Shown here: positions 40,344-47,490 of the stretch, one piece after another
How positions within the stretch are numbered: the stretch's first letter is position 1
Layout: each line of letters starts with the position of its first letter
From: Desulfobacterales bacterium
GTDB taxonomy: Bacteria; Desulfobacterota; Desulfobacteria; Desulfobacterales; JAHEIW01
Length of the DNA: 55,144 nucleotides
Assembly: GCA_030066985.1 (NCBI GenBank)
Contig: JASJAN010000059.1
Location: 1-55,144 of the forward strand
Reading direction: 5' to 3'
Notes under the pieces: model-generated
Databases searched by the model: none
Told to the model about the DNA's origin: nothing
What the model saw: only the letters and a program-made list of their open reading frames with translations
Program-made: the position numbers and the translations under genes

Positions 40344-40928
40344 ATGAAAAAAATAATGTTGCTATCTTTTCTATCGATCCTGATATCAGCCTGCACCAGT
40401 TTCGATATCAGCGATCATAATGCATCGATTAACGAGCCAAATCCAGAAATTAAGCGGGTTGCCGTCATTGATTTTGATTTCGCCAGACCCGAAAGGGGTA
40501 GAACGGATCGGGGGCGGATCACCCGGCCGATGAATGCCGGATCGATTATGGCAGATATCTTCGCAGAGCACTTGTTGGCCTCCGGTTTATATGATGTGGT
40601 CGAAAGAAGAAAAGTTGCCCGGATGATGCGCGATTTTGAAATTGATACCAGCGATATTTTTGCCACGGATACGATCAACAAAATGCAACAGGTGCTGAAT
40701 GTCGATGGGTTGGTGGTTGGTGTGGTCATGGAATATGGTGACTGGCGCGGGAGACTCAACTGGGGCGGTGTGGTCGGCTTCAGTGCCCGGCTGGTTCAGG
40801 TCGACTCCGGATCGTTGATATGGGCCGCCAGCGCCAACCGTGACATGGCCATGACCAATTCCACGGCAATCGCCCATGCCGCGTCTGAGGATGCACTTGA
40901 AGACCTTATTGCCAAAATCGGCAGATGA
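40344..40928 (+). CDS. CsgG/DUF799-like lipoprotein
   Basis: A 194-residue lipoprotein: lipobox LISAC (Cys16), then a domain like CsgG/LpoB-type assembly lipoproteins. Visible are RVAVIDFDFARPE, IMADIFAEHLLASGLYDVVE, VDGLVVGVVMEYGDW and ARLVQVDSGSLIWAASANRD. It would sit in the periplasm on the outer membrane. AGGAGG precedes the ATG. It heads a three-gene operon; the next gene starts 14 bases later. Whether it forms a pore is not shown, as this group includes non-pore relatives. Confidence 0.8.
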   Translation: MKKIMLLSFLSILISACTSFDISDHNASINEPNPEIKRVAVIDFDFARPERGRTDRGRITRPMNAGSIMADIFAEHLLASGLYDVVERRKVARMMRDFEIDTSDIFATDTINKMQQVLNVDGLVVGVVMEYGDWRGRLNWGGVVGFSARLVQVDSGSLIWAASANRDMAMTNSTAIAHAASEDALEDLIAKIGR

Positions 40929-40942
40929 TTAAAATTTAATCG

Positions 40943-42034
40943 ATGCGTGAAATATACTCGATAACCCGCCAGGTTTTGCACAATTGCGACATTTCGGATG
41001 CGCAGCACGCCGGACTGTATTCCACCTGTGGTTTGGCTCTGCGCTTGCGTGACCTTTATAAGTGGGAGCATCAATTAAGTCCCTGGGAGGAAAAAGACAC
41101 TTCTGAGATTTTGGACTGGATTGGTGAAAAGGAAACTCTCTGGGAAAAACTGGCAAATGCAAAACACAAAAACATCGAGATACGGGACCAACAATACGAT
41201 TTGTTTGATACGTCTGCAATCAATGCAATCCTTGAGCCCCAGGGCCTATTTTACGGCGCCGGATATGCGTTTAGCCTTAAACCCACTTTTTTTCTGGCTG
41301 AGATCGAAAACAAACGCACAAACAATGGATACAGCGTCTATACGCTTGGCCGCGAACTGGCCCGCGATTTGCTGACCCTGCCCGCCCTGACGCAAGCACA
41401 ACAAATCCTGTTGCGAACCGATTCCGCTCGATTGTATTTGTGGGATCAAATGGCCTACATAAAAAAATCGGGTCGACCCGCCTTACGGTTTGCCCTCGAG
41501 CACTGCGGGCTCAAAACCCAAGATCCAGCGACAATCAGGCAACACCTGCCTGTTATTCTGGCGGCGCAAACAGACAATTATATATTCCATGAAATTGGAG
41601 AACTCAGCGATGATAGTTTTAAACCCAATACTTGGCGCGAAATGATTGCCGACTTTCCGCATTCACCGGTTGAGCTGCTTGCCCGCGGGCTCAAGGACTT
41701 ACTGGCTGACACGCACCCAAGCGGGACGCTTCACCATCTGATCGAAAATCGCAATATGGCCGGTCTTGGATTATATGTCGCTTTTTTGGACGGGATGCTC
41801 AAAGAATTGTTCCCCCATCTGCGTCCTGCATTTAATCACTTTACCAAATCGCAGAATTGGTCTATAATTAAGGAGGTTACATTAGAAAGTCACCATGATG
41901 CCAAGCAAATAGTGTCCGAAATGATGGCTTTGTATCAAACCGGTAAGCAAAAAAACCGGCTTCAATGGGCCAAAGATCAAATTGAGCAACGCCTGTTCGA
42001 AAAAATCAAACAAAAGGAGCTTGCAAGCGCATAA
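40943..42034 (+). CDS. Uncharacterised protein conserved in sulfate reducers (Sfum_1244-like)
   Basis: A 363-residue soluble protein, largely helical, with no signal peptide or membrane segment. The N-terminus MREIYSITRQVLHNCDISDA and LRLRDLYKWEHQLSPWEEKD resemble a family I associate with Syntrophobacter/Desulfobacter (Sfum_1244); I hold that name loosely. No enzymatic motif is seen. There is no ribosome site before ATG 40943, 14 bases after the previous stop, so it is probably coupled. It is followed 16 bases later by the MotA/FliG-like protein, so the three genes likely act together. Confidence 0.6.
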   Translation: MREIYSITRQVLHNCDISDAQHAGLYSTCGLALRLRDLYKWEHQLSPWEEKDTSEILDWIGEKETLWEKLANAKHKNIEIRDQQYDLFDTSAINAILEPQGLFYGAGYAFSLKPTFFLAEIENKRTNNGYSVYTLGRELARDLLTLPALTQAQQILLRTDSARLYLWDQMAYIKKSGRPALRFALEHCGLKTQDPATIRQHLPVILAAQTDNYIFHEIGELSDDSFKPNTWREMIADFPHSPVELLARGLKDLLADTHPSGTLHHLIENRNMAGLGLYVAFLDGMLKELFPHLRPAFNHFTKSQNWSIIKEVTLESHHDAKQIVSEMMALYQTGKQKNRLQWAKDQIEQRLFEKIKQKELASA

Positions 42035-42050
42035 GATCAGGAAATTCTAA

Positions 42051-42791
42051 ATGAATTATGATGCTGAGTTTTGCCAACAGATCCGTGTAAGTGAAGATGA
42101 AAAAAGAGAGTGCCTGTCGCTGATCAGCGAAATTCTACATCTGGCCACCAGTGCCCGCAATTATGGCCTGCTGTCATTTGGTAAAGAAGCAGAGGAAAAT
42201 TCATCTTTTCTGCTGCGCAAAGGGCTTCAGCTGGCTTTGGACGGTGTCAAAAGCCAGACGGCCAGAACAATATTGGAGCTTTACATCTTTACTGCCAATT
42301 ATACCGGCAAAGATCTGCTGGAGCGCTGTATCATTCTTGAAGGCGTCATCGGAATTTTGGATGGGATGCACCCCAAGCTGCTCAAAGAGCTTTTGGTGTC
42401 CTTTCTCGGAGAATCCGGCCATGACATTTACAAGGATGAATATGAGCCGCTGGAAAAGGAAAAACTGGACATCTATCTGAACAAAGTGAAGGATCAAGCG
42501 GCCGCATCAACATCAGCCACTGAGTTGTGTGACCTCATCAAACCGCTCAAAGATACAGTGGTTAAGCGCTTCTTACAAGTTATCAATATCGACGATCTGG
42601 CCAAGGTCATTGTCCGCCTGGACGGTGGCATTCAGACCAGATTGTTTGAGAGTTTGCCGGAACGCGGGGCATTTCTGCTGCTGGATGCCATTGAACAGCT
42701 CAATACGGTTCAACCACATGAAATCGAGGAGGCCCAGGAAAAGGTCGTCGCCATTATCGACGAGCTGAAAGATCAGGATTGGGCCCATTGA
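42051..42791 (+). CDS. Soluble protein with MotA cytoplasmic-like and FliG C-terminal-like regions
   Basis: A 246-residue protein with no membrane helix. Residues about 28-80 match the MotA cytoplasmic pattern: LATSARNYGLLSFGKEAEEN then FLLRKGLQLALDGV (compare MotA GLLALE and FLxxGLxLxxDG). Residues about 169-240 align without gaps to the FliG C-terminal torque domain: VINIDDLAKVIVRLD, LPERGAFLLLDAIE and EEAQEKVVAIIDEL. FliG R281 and D288 equivalents are kept (Arg205, Asp212), while K264, D289 and R297 equivalents are not. AGGAAA precedes the ATG. It ends the three-gene operon. No flagellar gene is near. Domain calls rest on pattern alignment, from memory. Confidence 0.65.
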   Translation: MNYDAEFCQQIRVSEDEKRECLSLISEILHLATSARNYGLLSFGKEAEENSSFLLRKGLQLALDGVKSQTARTILELYIFTANYTGKDLLERCIILEGVIGILDGMHPKLLKELLVSFLGESGHDIYKDEYEPLEKEKLDIYLNKVKDQAAASTSATELCDLIKPLKDTVVKRFLQVINIDDLAKVIVRLDGGIQTRLFESLPERGAFLLLDAIEQLNTVQPHEIEEAQEKVVAIIDELKDQDWAH

Positions 42792-42979
42792 CATATTATG
42801 TTCACGTTGATGCCTAAAAACACCCCGCCGAACCATCAGTGCCGCAGAACTGACTGAAATCTATCAGAACAATTCCGACAGGTTTTTACAAGCCACGTAA
42901 AACTAATTTATAAATGCATCTTGCCCCAAGGACCGGCACAACGACCTAAACGGGCCCAACCGGCAAACCTTTTGATAGC

Positions 42980-45822: not shown

Positions 45823-47490
45823 ATGAAATTGTTAAATATAGGGTGCGGGCTGGTGATGATCTTATTGTTGTTTATCGGATGCACCACAACCGGCTCTATG
45901 AAGGATCCGCTGATTGAAGCCGTTGAAAGCGGCAATCTGGACGAAGTGAAGCTGCAGTTAAAAATGAGCTACGGCGGCGCCAGGCATATGCGTGATAAAA
46001 ATGGCAAGACTCTTTTGCATCTGGCAACTGAATACGGACATGCGCCTATTGTTAAATACCTTCTGGCAAACGGGATGAACCCGGACACCATCGACCGGAT
46101 CGGGGATACGGCCCTTCAGATTGCTGCTTACAATGGTTATGCGGATATTACCGAACAATTGTTAGCGGCCGGCGCCAATGTCAATACGGCCAACACTTAT
46201 GGCATTACCCCGTTGCTAAATGCACTGTTTAATCAGCAGTATGATATTGCACGATTATTGGTTCGCAATGGTGCGAACATCCATTCCAAAAGCGTCAATG
46301 GTAGCCCCCCTTTACATGTGGCCGCCAAAAACGGGAATCTGGAATTCGTCAAATTCCTAATCAATCAGGGTGCCGATGTAAACGCCAGCGGGCAATTCAG
46401 CTTCAAGCCTATTCACTTTGCTGCCGAATATGGTCATCTGGCAGTGGTTCAATACCTGGTATCCAAAGGTGCTGATGTCAATGCCAGGGATACTTACGGC
46501 CGGACCCCTTTACATGAGGCCATTCAAAAAGGCCACCTGGAAGTGGTCAAATTTTTAATTCAAAACGGTGCCGATTACAGGGCACGCGATCTGCAGAACA
46601 CCACACCACTAAAGCTTGCCCGACGGTCGAAAAACAGTGAGATCGAATATTTCATCACCGGTCTGTTTGTTGACAAAGTGCAAAAAAAAGCAAGACCCGT
46701 AAGCCCCAGCAGTGATTATTCAGCCAGCGGACGAATAAAACTGCCACAATCGGATTCACCGGTTGCGGCACAAAAAATTGATTTCGGCACTTATCACGCC
46801 CTGGTCATCGGCAATAACGACTACCAACATTTACCCAAGCTGCAAACTGCTAAAAGCGATGCCAATGATGTCGGCCGTATCTTGAAAAGCCATTATGGCT
46901 TTCAGGTTCAACTGCTTTTAGATGCGGATCGCAGCCAGATTCTGGTAGCACTTAGCCGCCTCAGGTCACAATTAAGCGCAAGAGATAACCTGTTAATATA
47001 TTATGCGGGCCATGGTTGGCTGGACAGAGAGGGCGATGAAGGATACTGGCTACCAATTGATGCCCAACTGGCGAACACCGTTAATTGGGTGTCAAATTCA
47101 TCTATCACCACGATGTTAAGGGGGATGAAAGCGAAACATGTGCTCATCGTAGCCGATAGCTGTTATGCTGGCAAGCTGGCCAGAGGTCTGCATACGATTA
47201 AAAAATCACGGGACTACCTTTACCGCATTTCAAACAAAAGAGCCCGATCGGTTTTATCATCGGGTGGACTGGAGCCGGTTGTAGACAGCGGTGGCAGCGG
47301 TCATCATTCGGTTTTTGCATCCGCTTTTATGACCGCGTTACTGGAGAATACCAGCATAATGGACGCCACCCAACTTTTCAGCACCATTCGGCGCCCGGTA
47401 ATGCTCAACTCAGATCAGACACCGGAATATTCCGATCTGCGCAAAGCCGGTCATGAGGGCGGAGACTTTATTTTTGTCCGCAAAGAGTAA
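45823..47490 (+). CDS. Caspase-family lipoprotein 2 with ankyrin repeats
   Basis: A 555-residue lipoprotein: lipobox LLFIGC (Cys20), then about seven ankyrin repeats (residues about 29-280; for example GKTLLHLATEYGHAPIVKYL, GRTPLHEAIQKGHLEVVKFL). A Ser/Pro linker follows, then a caspase domain at about 318-553. The catalytic dyad is His397 (YYAGHGW) and Cys447 (VADSCYAG). The peptidase half shares most residues with caspase 1 (DNLLIYYAGHGWLD, GDEGYWLP, SVFASAF), so the two domains are close paralogs with different sensor halves. AGGGGG precedes the ATG. Second gene of its operon. Confidence 0.92.
   Translation: MKLLNIGCGLVMILLLFIGCTTTGSMKDPLIEAVESGNLDEVKLQLKMSYGGARHMRDKNGKTLLHLATEYGHAPIVKYLLANGMNPDTIDRIGDTALQIAAYNGYADITEQLLAAGANVNTANTYGITPLLNALFNQQYDIARLLVRNGANIHSKSVNGSPPLHVAAKNGNLEFVKFLINQGADVNASGQFSFKPIHFAAEYGHLAVVQYLVSKGADVNARDTYGRTPLHEAIQKGHLEVVKFLIQNGADYRARDLQNTTPLKLARRSKNSEIEYFITGLFVDKVQKKARPVSPSSDYSASGRIKLPQSDSPVAAQKIDFGTYHALVIGNNDYQHLPKLQTAKSDANDVGRILKSHYGFQVQLLLDADRSQILVALSRLRSQLSARDNLLIYYAGHGWLDREGDEGYWLPIDAQLANTVNWVSNSSITTMLRGMKAKHVLIVADSCYAGKLARGLHTIKKSRDYLYRISNKRARSVLSSGGLEPVVDSGGSGHHSVFASAFMTALLENTSIMDATQLFSTIRRPVMLNSDQTPEYSDLRKAGHEGGDFIFVRKE

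Follow-up and report, generated by a model that had tools for sequence, protein, structure and literature searches.

Flagellar torque is generated at the contact between MotA of the stator and FliG of the rotor, and knowledge of this contact comes largely from point mutants. Two charge pairs have been described there, R90-D289 and E98-R281, with the MotA residue named first (PMC7564593, PMC6079164); the former is reported as critical for stator assembly and the latter has been linked to torque (PMC6079164), and R90/D288-D289 is named as a contact in a 2025 survey of MotAB diversity (PMC12505986). The soluble brakes and clutches YcgR and EpsE bind MotA and/or FliG (PMC10140304, PMC13432727), and YcgR is reported to bind both (PMC10140304). 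Here we describe a protein, hereafter the hybrid, which joins the cytoplasmic domain of MotA to the C-terminal domain of FliG. It is encoded by the last of three genes at positions 40344-42791 of a 55,144-nucleotide stretch from a Desulfobacterales bacterium (contig JASJAN010000059.1), the whole of which is referred to as the window. No description of a MotA-FliG hybrid protein was found in the literature searched, which lay outside subscription journals and preprint servers, and the words "soluble", "fusion" and "Leptospira" are absent from the main text of the 2025 survey (PMC12505986).

The hybrid is a genuine MotA/FliG fusion by profiles, PDB sequences and structure, with matches far above chance. 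Residues 53-66, FLLRKGLQLALDGV, align to the cytoplasmic loop of MotA in PDB 8ucs_C, the stator of Clostridium sporogenes, which matches the hybrid with a whole-sequence E value of 2.5e-9. In the PDB sequence search MotA is matched in two segments, residues 17-91 of the hybrid corresponding to MotA 73-150 and residues 86-127 to MotA 215-256. Alignment with 22 MotA sequences indicates that transmembrane helices TM1 and TM2 are missing, as is the TM3-TM4 hairpin, whose place lies between approximately residues 82 and 86. The maximal 19-residue Kyte-Doolittle mean is 1.31 in the hybrid versus 2.02-2.77 in the eight MotA sequences printed, and on hydropathy the protein is predicted to be soluble and to have no transmembrane helix. 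The second half is recognised by Pfam FliG_C (PF01706) at residues 163-242 (E value 1.3e-10; 42.0 bits, cut-off 23.3). The FliG equivalog profile TIGR00207 gives the hybrid 28.1 bits, below its cut-off of 226.7, and only its positions 246-323 of 338 are matched. The Pfam family MgtE_N scores the window copy at 22.4 bits, under its cut-off of 25.9, and passes in the copy from a second genome, G002 (33.3 bits, exceeding the FliG_C score of 27.6 for that copy). By these profile scores the part concerned resembles MgtE_N, as does FliG itself.

An AlphaFold model of the hybrid was built from four sequences and has a mean predicted local distance difference test (pLDDT) value of 72.0 and a predicted template modelling score (pTM) of 0.49; with these values, each domain is usable and the placement of the domains relative to each other is not. 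In structural alignments, model residues 20-120 superpose onto residues 72-243 of PomA (Z 15.9; root-mean-square deviation 1.3; 99 residues; 29% identity) and residues 158-244 onto FliG (PDB: 3ajc; Z 12.8; root-mean-square deviation 1.4; 86 residues). Structures unrelated to MotA or FliG reached Z of about 6 or less, with MgtE and ExbB/TolQ at 4.8-6.0. A Foldseek search with the model returned nothing at an E value of 1e-3 or better (best 7.6e-3); it nonetheless ranked FliG and MotA first, with probabilities of 0.99-1.00.

The distribution of the hybrid was surveyed in drawn samples of genomes from one phylum, the best few candidates per genome being scored, so that absences are lower bounds. 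An order-level draw contained full-length hybrids in 8 of 389 genomes, with 10 intact copies: two each in the source genome (G000) and G698, and one each in G002, G003, G004, G760, G770 and G616, along with a fragment in G002. A class-level draw gave the hybrid in 7 of 389 genomes. In a phylum draw of 395 genomes at an E value of 1e-8, the other matches among those listed look like FliG or MotA in frame length and matched range, the exceptions being a soluble MotA gene that stands alone in each of G408 and G427. A collection of genome contigs yielded no match to a single-sequence query and three loci (L026-L028) to an alignment query, all from genomes already counted, and no hybrid was found in phages or viral contigs.

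Of the two hybrids of the source genome, copy A lies in the window and copy B on contig C12. The ancestor of genus g1 probably already carried copy A, of which the last 44 codons persist in G001 (L128:9681-9812) and a piece of 29 codons at the corresponding site in G003 (L115:5929-6015); copy B is fragmented in G002. Nonsynonymous (dN) and synonymous (dS) divergence amount to 0.27 and 1.07 for the A pair and to 0.18 and 2.30 for the B pair, in which dS is near saturation, and the intact copies show signs of purifying selection. Chance resemblance or a pseudogene is ruled out by these values together with the profile, PDB and structural matches. A recent fusion of a genome's own MotA and FliG was likewise rejected, since the hybrids form one clade in each domain tree and are not nested with the genome's own proteins (ultrafast bootstrap, UFBoot, 99 in both trees; 100 for the MotA part with 10 hybrids), although long branches limit placement in these trees. 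The hybrids are a conserved, patchily inherited family in bacteria with FliG.

The ten hybrids were compared with 32 FliG (frames of 300-400 residues) and 21 MotA sequences (240-340 residues) after deduplication. Numbering follows FliG and MotA of E. coli MG1655, which was left out of the counts, as were shorter FliG frames, including the broken one of G001 (243 residues) and one at L045 (225 residues), and FliG loci fetched later. In the window copy, R205, D212, V188, A213 and Q221 are the equivalents of FliG R281, D288, K264, D289 and R297, while R36, G44 and Y78 correspond in alignment numbering to MotA R90, E98 and E150. The positions of FliG R281 and MotA R90 are basic, and that of FliG D288 acidic, in all ten hybrids. 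The D289 position, acidic in 32 of 32 FliG sequences, is acidic in none of them (A, T or V); the same holds for E98 (G, A, V or I) and E150 (Y or F), each acidic in 21 of 21 MotA sequences and in 0 of 10 hybrids. What stands out in the family is that E98, E150 and D289, invariant in the genuine proteins, are lost completely. As a control, every column with a conserved charge in genuine FliG or MotA was listed for the hybrids. Among the FliG columns, 273 and 291 are kept in 10 of 10 and 300 in nine, and 243, 252 and 271 are kept in 3, 5 and 1; among the MotA columns, 128, 135, 234 and 243 are kept in all ten and 139, 258 and 260 in none.

Since the acidic member of each canonical pair is lost and the basic member kept, neither R90-D289 nor E98-R281 can form within or between hybrids. 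The sequence-only reading had joined a MotA cytoplasmic-like stretch and a FliG torque domain in one soluble chain, with R281 and D288 retained and K264, D289 and R297 not. Hydropathy, profiles and comparison of the model with MotA-type and FliG structures bear this out, and the residue assignments proved exact in the window copy. The further idea of a contact between the stator half and the rotor half inside the protein is weakened, since each of the two pairs lacks one partner in 10 of 10 hybrids. Two invariant cysteines, C21 and C93, are found in 0 of 5 other soluble MotA proteins; a third cysteine lies close to the N terminus, at position 8 in the two A copies and at position 13 in the others.

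A candidate relative outside the surveyed phylum is a family from Leptospira, represented by NF047717 (LIC10244; 252 positions) and labelled in NCBIfam as PerRA/PerRB upregulated. This profile was scored on seven of the ten hybrids. It matches four hybrids of family f1 at positions 9-240, 9-240, 9-244 and 10-221, the third of these being copy B of the source genome, and two further hybrids at 9-225 and 8-247; on the window copy the match spans 8-196, leaving most of the FliG part outside. Scores fall below the 475-bit cut-off, ranging from 62.8 to 93.3 bits for five hybrids of family f1 and amounting to 75.1 and 88.9 bits for the two others. The second half of the profile also matches the FliG_C pieces of two B copies when these are taken alone (E values 1.7e-4 and 6.4e-5), and the profile is not listed for the source genome's true MotA or FliG at E values up to 1. 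From the colinear match, the matches to FliG_C pieces and the lack of matches to true MotA and FliG, a MotA-FliG_C architecture is probable for the Leptospira family too. LIC10244 appears once as a hypothetical protein, in a table relating to the perRA/perRB double mutant, marked CY and with a value of 6.61 (PMC8638967), and is not among the three FliG and two MotA genes of L. interrogans named in PMC11800159.

Other soluble MotA relatives show no FliG_C. On plasmid pTS2 of Treponema saccharophilum (NZ_AP025290.1, approximately 179643-187427; L153:39644-47428) a cluster of soluble MotA-like genes lies among many small hypothetical genes and leucine-rich-repeat genes. The three proteins read comprise 285, 181 and 178 residues, and a fourth gene is represented by a 68-residue match with 88% identity. 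Two of the proteins end in FliM-type motifs, SQDEIDALLGG in one and SADEIDELL followed by DEEIDALLGG in the other, and a third ends in the diverged forms SADEVDEFL and SEVLDALLGG; FliM and FliY bind CheY-P through the EIDALL motif (PMC9126983). The stand-alone soluble MotA-like proteins of G408 (L030:744-1142, 132 residues) and G427 (L031:1438-1893, 151 residues) come from another family, in genomes with FliG and flagellin matches, and retain the charge at both E98 and E150. In the Treponema copies E150 is replaced by Y, a change also seen in the hybrids. In the tree of the MotA part these two groups and the hybrids fall together (UFBoot 97), a deeper grouping that is tentative given the long branches. 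The E98 position is acidic in 5 of 5 soluble MotA relatives that have no fused FliG_C, where there is no self-pairing to avoid.

We tentatively propose, at slightly less than an even chance, that the hybrid is a soluble clutch or adaptor that binds the motor. It would dock onto a genuine flagellar motor, contacting the real stator through FliG_C and the real rotor through the MotA domain; the R281 equivalent could pair with E98 of real MotA, and the R90 equivalent with D289 of real FliG. Once docked, the hybrid could uncouple, brake or hold stator units, and we speculate that the hybrid-specific cysteines might provide an input, redox or metal. In the source genome a flagellar cluster on contig C46 was recognised from translations and its FliG and MotA confirmed by profile. 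True FliG is found in 8 of 8 hybrid genomes, partially in the fragmented G760. Of six genomes in family f1, four carry an intact hybrid, and in each of these FliG is unbroken and flagellin-N gives a match. G005, with no hybrid, has FliG and no flagellin-N match. G001, with no intact hybrid, keeps flagellin-N matches, and its FliG (L113:13312-14171) and FliI (L113:11273-12554) are each divided between two frames and have lost a short internal piece; either the flagellum is decaying or the assembly is at fault. The co-occurrence in family f1 agrees with a motor role, although six genomes prove nothing and draft assemblies can break frames.

Several observations count against a motor-binding clutch. 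FliG is common in the phylum, so that its presence in all eight genomes is weak evidence. Flagellin_C gave no match in 3 of 8 hybrid genomes (G003, G004, G698) and weak ones in the others (best 7.9e-6), and the flagellin-N profile also matches the hook protein FlgL. No hybrid was seen at an E value of 1e-15 in 381 of the 389 order-level genomes, and the hybrid is therefore not a general motor part; it has been lost repeatedly, as seen in the A remnants of G001 and G003 and the fragmented B copy of G002. No flagellar gene stands beside a hybrid in the stretches read, as judged from translations. The FliG part of the A pair evolves faster than the MotA part (dN 0.38 versus 0.16). At the residue level, the K264 position is basic in 7 of 10 hybrids, with the window copy among the three losses, the R297 position is basic in 3 of 10, and the acid of E150 is gone. 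Retention of R90, R281 and D288 is not unusual by itself, because other charge columns are also kept in 10 of 10, and as the ten hybrids are related such counts do not represent ten independent events. Finally, D288 is kept and R90/D288-D289 is a named contact (PMC12505986), so a self-contact between R90 and D288 may remain.

An alternative that we consider unlikely, though worth weighing, is that the hybrid is an exapted helical scaffold unlinked to flagella, its folds reused for instance in the setting of cell-envelope genes (in genus g9, LptA-like and MurJ-like ones). The absence of flagellar neighbours in what was read, the variation of the neighbours between lineages, the loss of several torque residues and the existence of FliG-bearing relatives that lack the gene (e.g., G005) are all consistent with such a role. 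They have to be set against the motor contacts R90, R281 and D288, whose charge is kept in every hybrid, the FliG of all host genomes, and the EIDALL motifs on the Treponema cousins.

A slightly more doubtful proposal is that the hybrid docks onto itself, its FliG_C half binding a MotA half either within one molecule or in the neighbouring one, as an autoinhibited switch or as a cytoplasmic ring or filament that works independently of the motor. One chain does hold both partners of a known interface, and with R90 and D288 kept throughout and K264 in most copies, part of that interface could still form. However, the two best-supported pairs, R90-D289 and E98-R281, are broken by acidic loss in all ten hybrids, and the model does not fix the placement of the domains. 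In a more elaborate form of the clutch reading, the hybrid, barred from pairing with itself by the loss of one acid from each canonical pair, might be a dedicated two-headed bridge that takes hold of real stator and real rotor simultaneously under a redox or metal switch formed by its cysteines, and would then represent one branch of a wider family of TM-less MotA proteins carrying parts of the flagellar switch (FliG_C here, FliM-type EIDALL tails in Treponema); we regard this elaboration as improbable. A known stator chaperone is FlgX, whose host is Campylobacter. A comparable function of the hybrid, as a chaperone of stator or rotor assembly whose MotA-like and FliG-like parts serve as a template for delivering or storing stator units, is the least probable of the readings, for while the kept R90 is the MotA side of the pair critical for stator assembly (PMC6079164) and FlgX sets a precedent (PMC6686046), no result here separates a chaperone from a clutch.

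Besides the hybrid gene, the locus contains two upstream genes; all three are co-directional open reading frames (ORFs), separated by 14 and 16 bases (Table 1).

Table 1. Coordinates of the hybrid gene, its parts and neighbouring features in the window
Feature	Position	Strand	Basis
CsgG-like small lipoprotein (gene 1)	40344..40928	+	PF03783, E value 1.1e-5, 25.2 bits, cut-off 20.8
DUF6866 / Sfum_1244 family protein (gene 2)	40943..42034	+	NF045620, E value 3e-112, 374.9 bits, cut-off 150
Hybrid (gene 3), 246 residues: MotA cytoplasmic domain and FliG C-terminal domain	42051..42791	+	Profile and PDB-sequence matches
MotA cytoplasmic loop, residues 17-84 (from MotA 73-150)	42099..42302	+	PDB-sequence and structural alignment
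C21, hybrid-invariant cysteine	42111..42113	+	10/10 hybrids, 0/21 MotA
Junction, residues 82-86, at missing MotA TM3-TM4 hairpin	42294..42308	+	Alignment with 22 MotA including E. coli; structural alignment with PomA
Equivalent of MotA C-terminal cytoplasmic tail, residues 86-127 (MotA 215-256)	42306..42431	+	PDB-sequence match
C93, hybrid-invariant cysteine	42327..42329	+	10/10 hybrids, 0/21 MotA
FliG C-terminal (torque) domain, residues 158-244	42522..42782	+	Pfam, PDB sequence, structure, residue alignment
Decayed remnant of 90-residue ORF	42826..42891	+	E value 1e-5; intact at locus in G001, G002, G003

The sequence-only reading saw here a three-gene operon that combines the hybrid with an assembly-type lipoprotein and an unknown protein, with no flagellar gene near, and suggested a motor-derived regulatory or assembly module. 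The lipoprotein can be specified as CsgG-like and the unknown protein belongs to the DUF6866 family. The spacing fits an operon, while the gene order is not conserved among relatives. DUF6866 is present in 13 of 58 relatives, and an intact hybrid adjoins it in only three, downstream in G000 and G002 and upstream in G004, where the hybrid lies between a NUDIX-like gene and DUF6866. In G001 and G003 the hybrid beside DUF6866 is reduced to a remnant, situated between DUF6866 and the 90-residue ORF, which is full length in both (L128 and L115). The remaining eight genomes with DUF6866 showed no full-length hybrid, and 7 of 10 hybrids are not beside DUF6866 in the stretches read. In G005 (L116), DUF6866 directly follows the NUDIX-like gene with no hybrid between. 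The CsgG-like gene adjoins DUF6866 in G000, G001 and G002; the stretches read for G003, G004 and G005 do not show it there. A conserved three-gene operon was accordingly rejected, given DUF6866 without hybrids, hybrids not found beside DUF6866 and two arrangements; as the two are mostly apart, the three-gene unit is local, and the DUF6866 protein is probably not a functional partner of the hybrid. For the DUF6866 protein, a PDB sequence search gave no credible match (best E value 0.4), the model is of low confidence (mean pLDDT 59.6), and Foldseek found no match to it at an E value of 1e-3 or better. A working module with the lipoprotein and the DUF6866 protein is thus not supported; the derivation of the hybrid from the motor is, and a regulatory role for it is plausible. 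As for flagellar genes, a Pfam scan of seven window proteins near the locus found no flagellar family besides the hybrid, the flagellar cluster of this genome being on contig C46.

Elsewhere the hybrids occupy other settings, with neighbours named from translations and several of the contigs short. Copy B and the hybrid of G003 lie near an alpha/beta hydrolase gene, and the first copy of G698 lies near a glycosyltransferase gene common to the B locus (67% match). The second copy of G698 and the hybrids of G770 and G760 (L143, L144 and L145, respectively; all genus g9) share a setting near LptA-like and MurJ-like genes and genes resembling those for ribosomal protein S20 and leucyl-tRNA synthetase, not each of which is present in all three. 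The hybrid of G616 is near other genes. Promoter-like sites show no excess (5 versus 4.5 in shuffles), terminator-like sites number 7 versus 3.3 in shuffles (standard deviation 1.6), and none of the latter follows the hybrid on the + strand. Further along, at 45823-47490, there is an ORF for a 555-residue lipoprotein-like product with YYAGHG and DSCYAG motifs, which we take to have ankyrin-type repeats and, by these motifs, a caspase-like C-terminal part.

With both contact faces on one natural soluble protein, and with the same charges kept or lost throughout, the hybrid offers a ready means of probing which of the contacts are important. Should the hybrid bind the motor, it would be a new class of motor regulator built from the motor's own parts, and LIC10244, its likely relative and so far a hypothetical protein (PMC8638967), would gain a testable role. 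The small Treponema family with EIDALL tails suggests that TM-less MotA domains can be reused as adaptors in the flagellar switch. Compared with its parent proteins, the hybrid is without the N-terminal and middle domains of FliG and without TM1-TM4 of MotA, the channel-region columns P173 and P222 being gaps in 10 of 10 hybrids. The Treponema, G408 and G427 proteins have the TM-less MotA cytoplasmic domain in common with it and, unlike it, show no FliG_C. From YcgR and EpsE it differs in its domains, neither a PilZ match (at E values up to 1) nor a glycosyltransferase match being reported for it in the Pfam scan. It is in its proposed action, on MotA and FliG alike, that the hybrid may be likened to YcgR.

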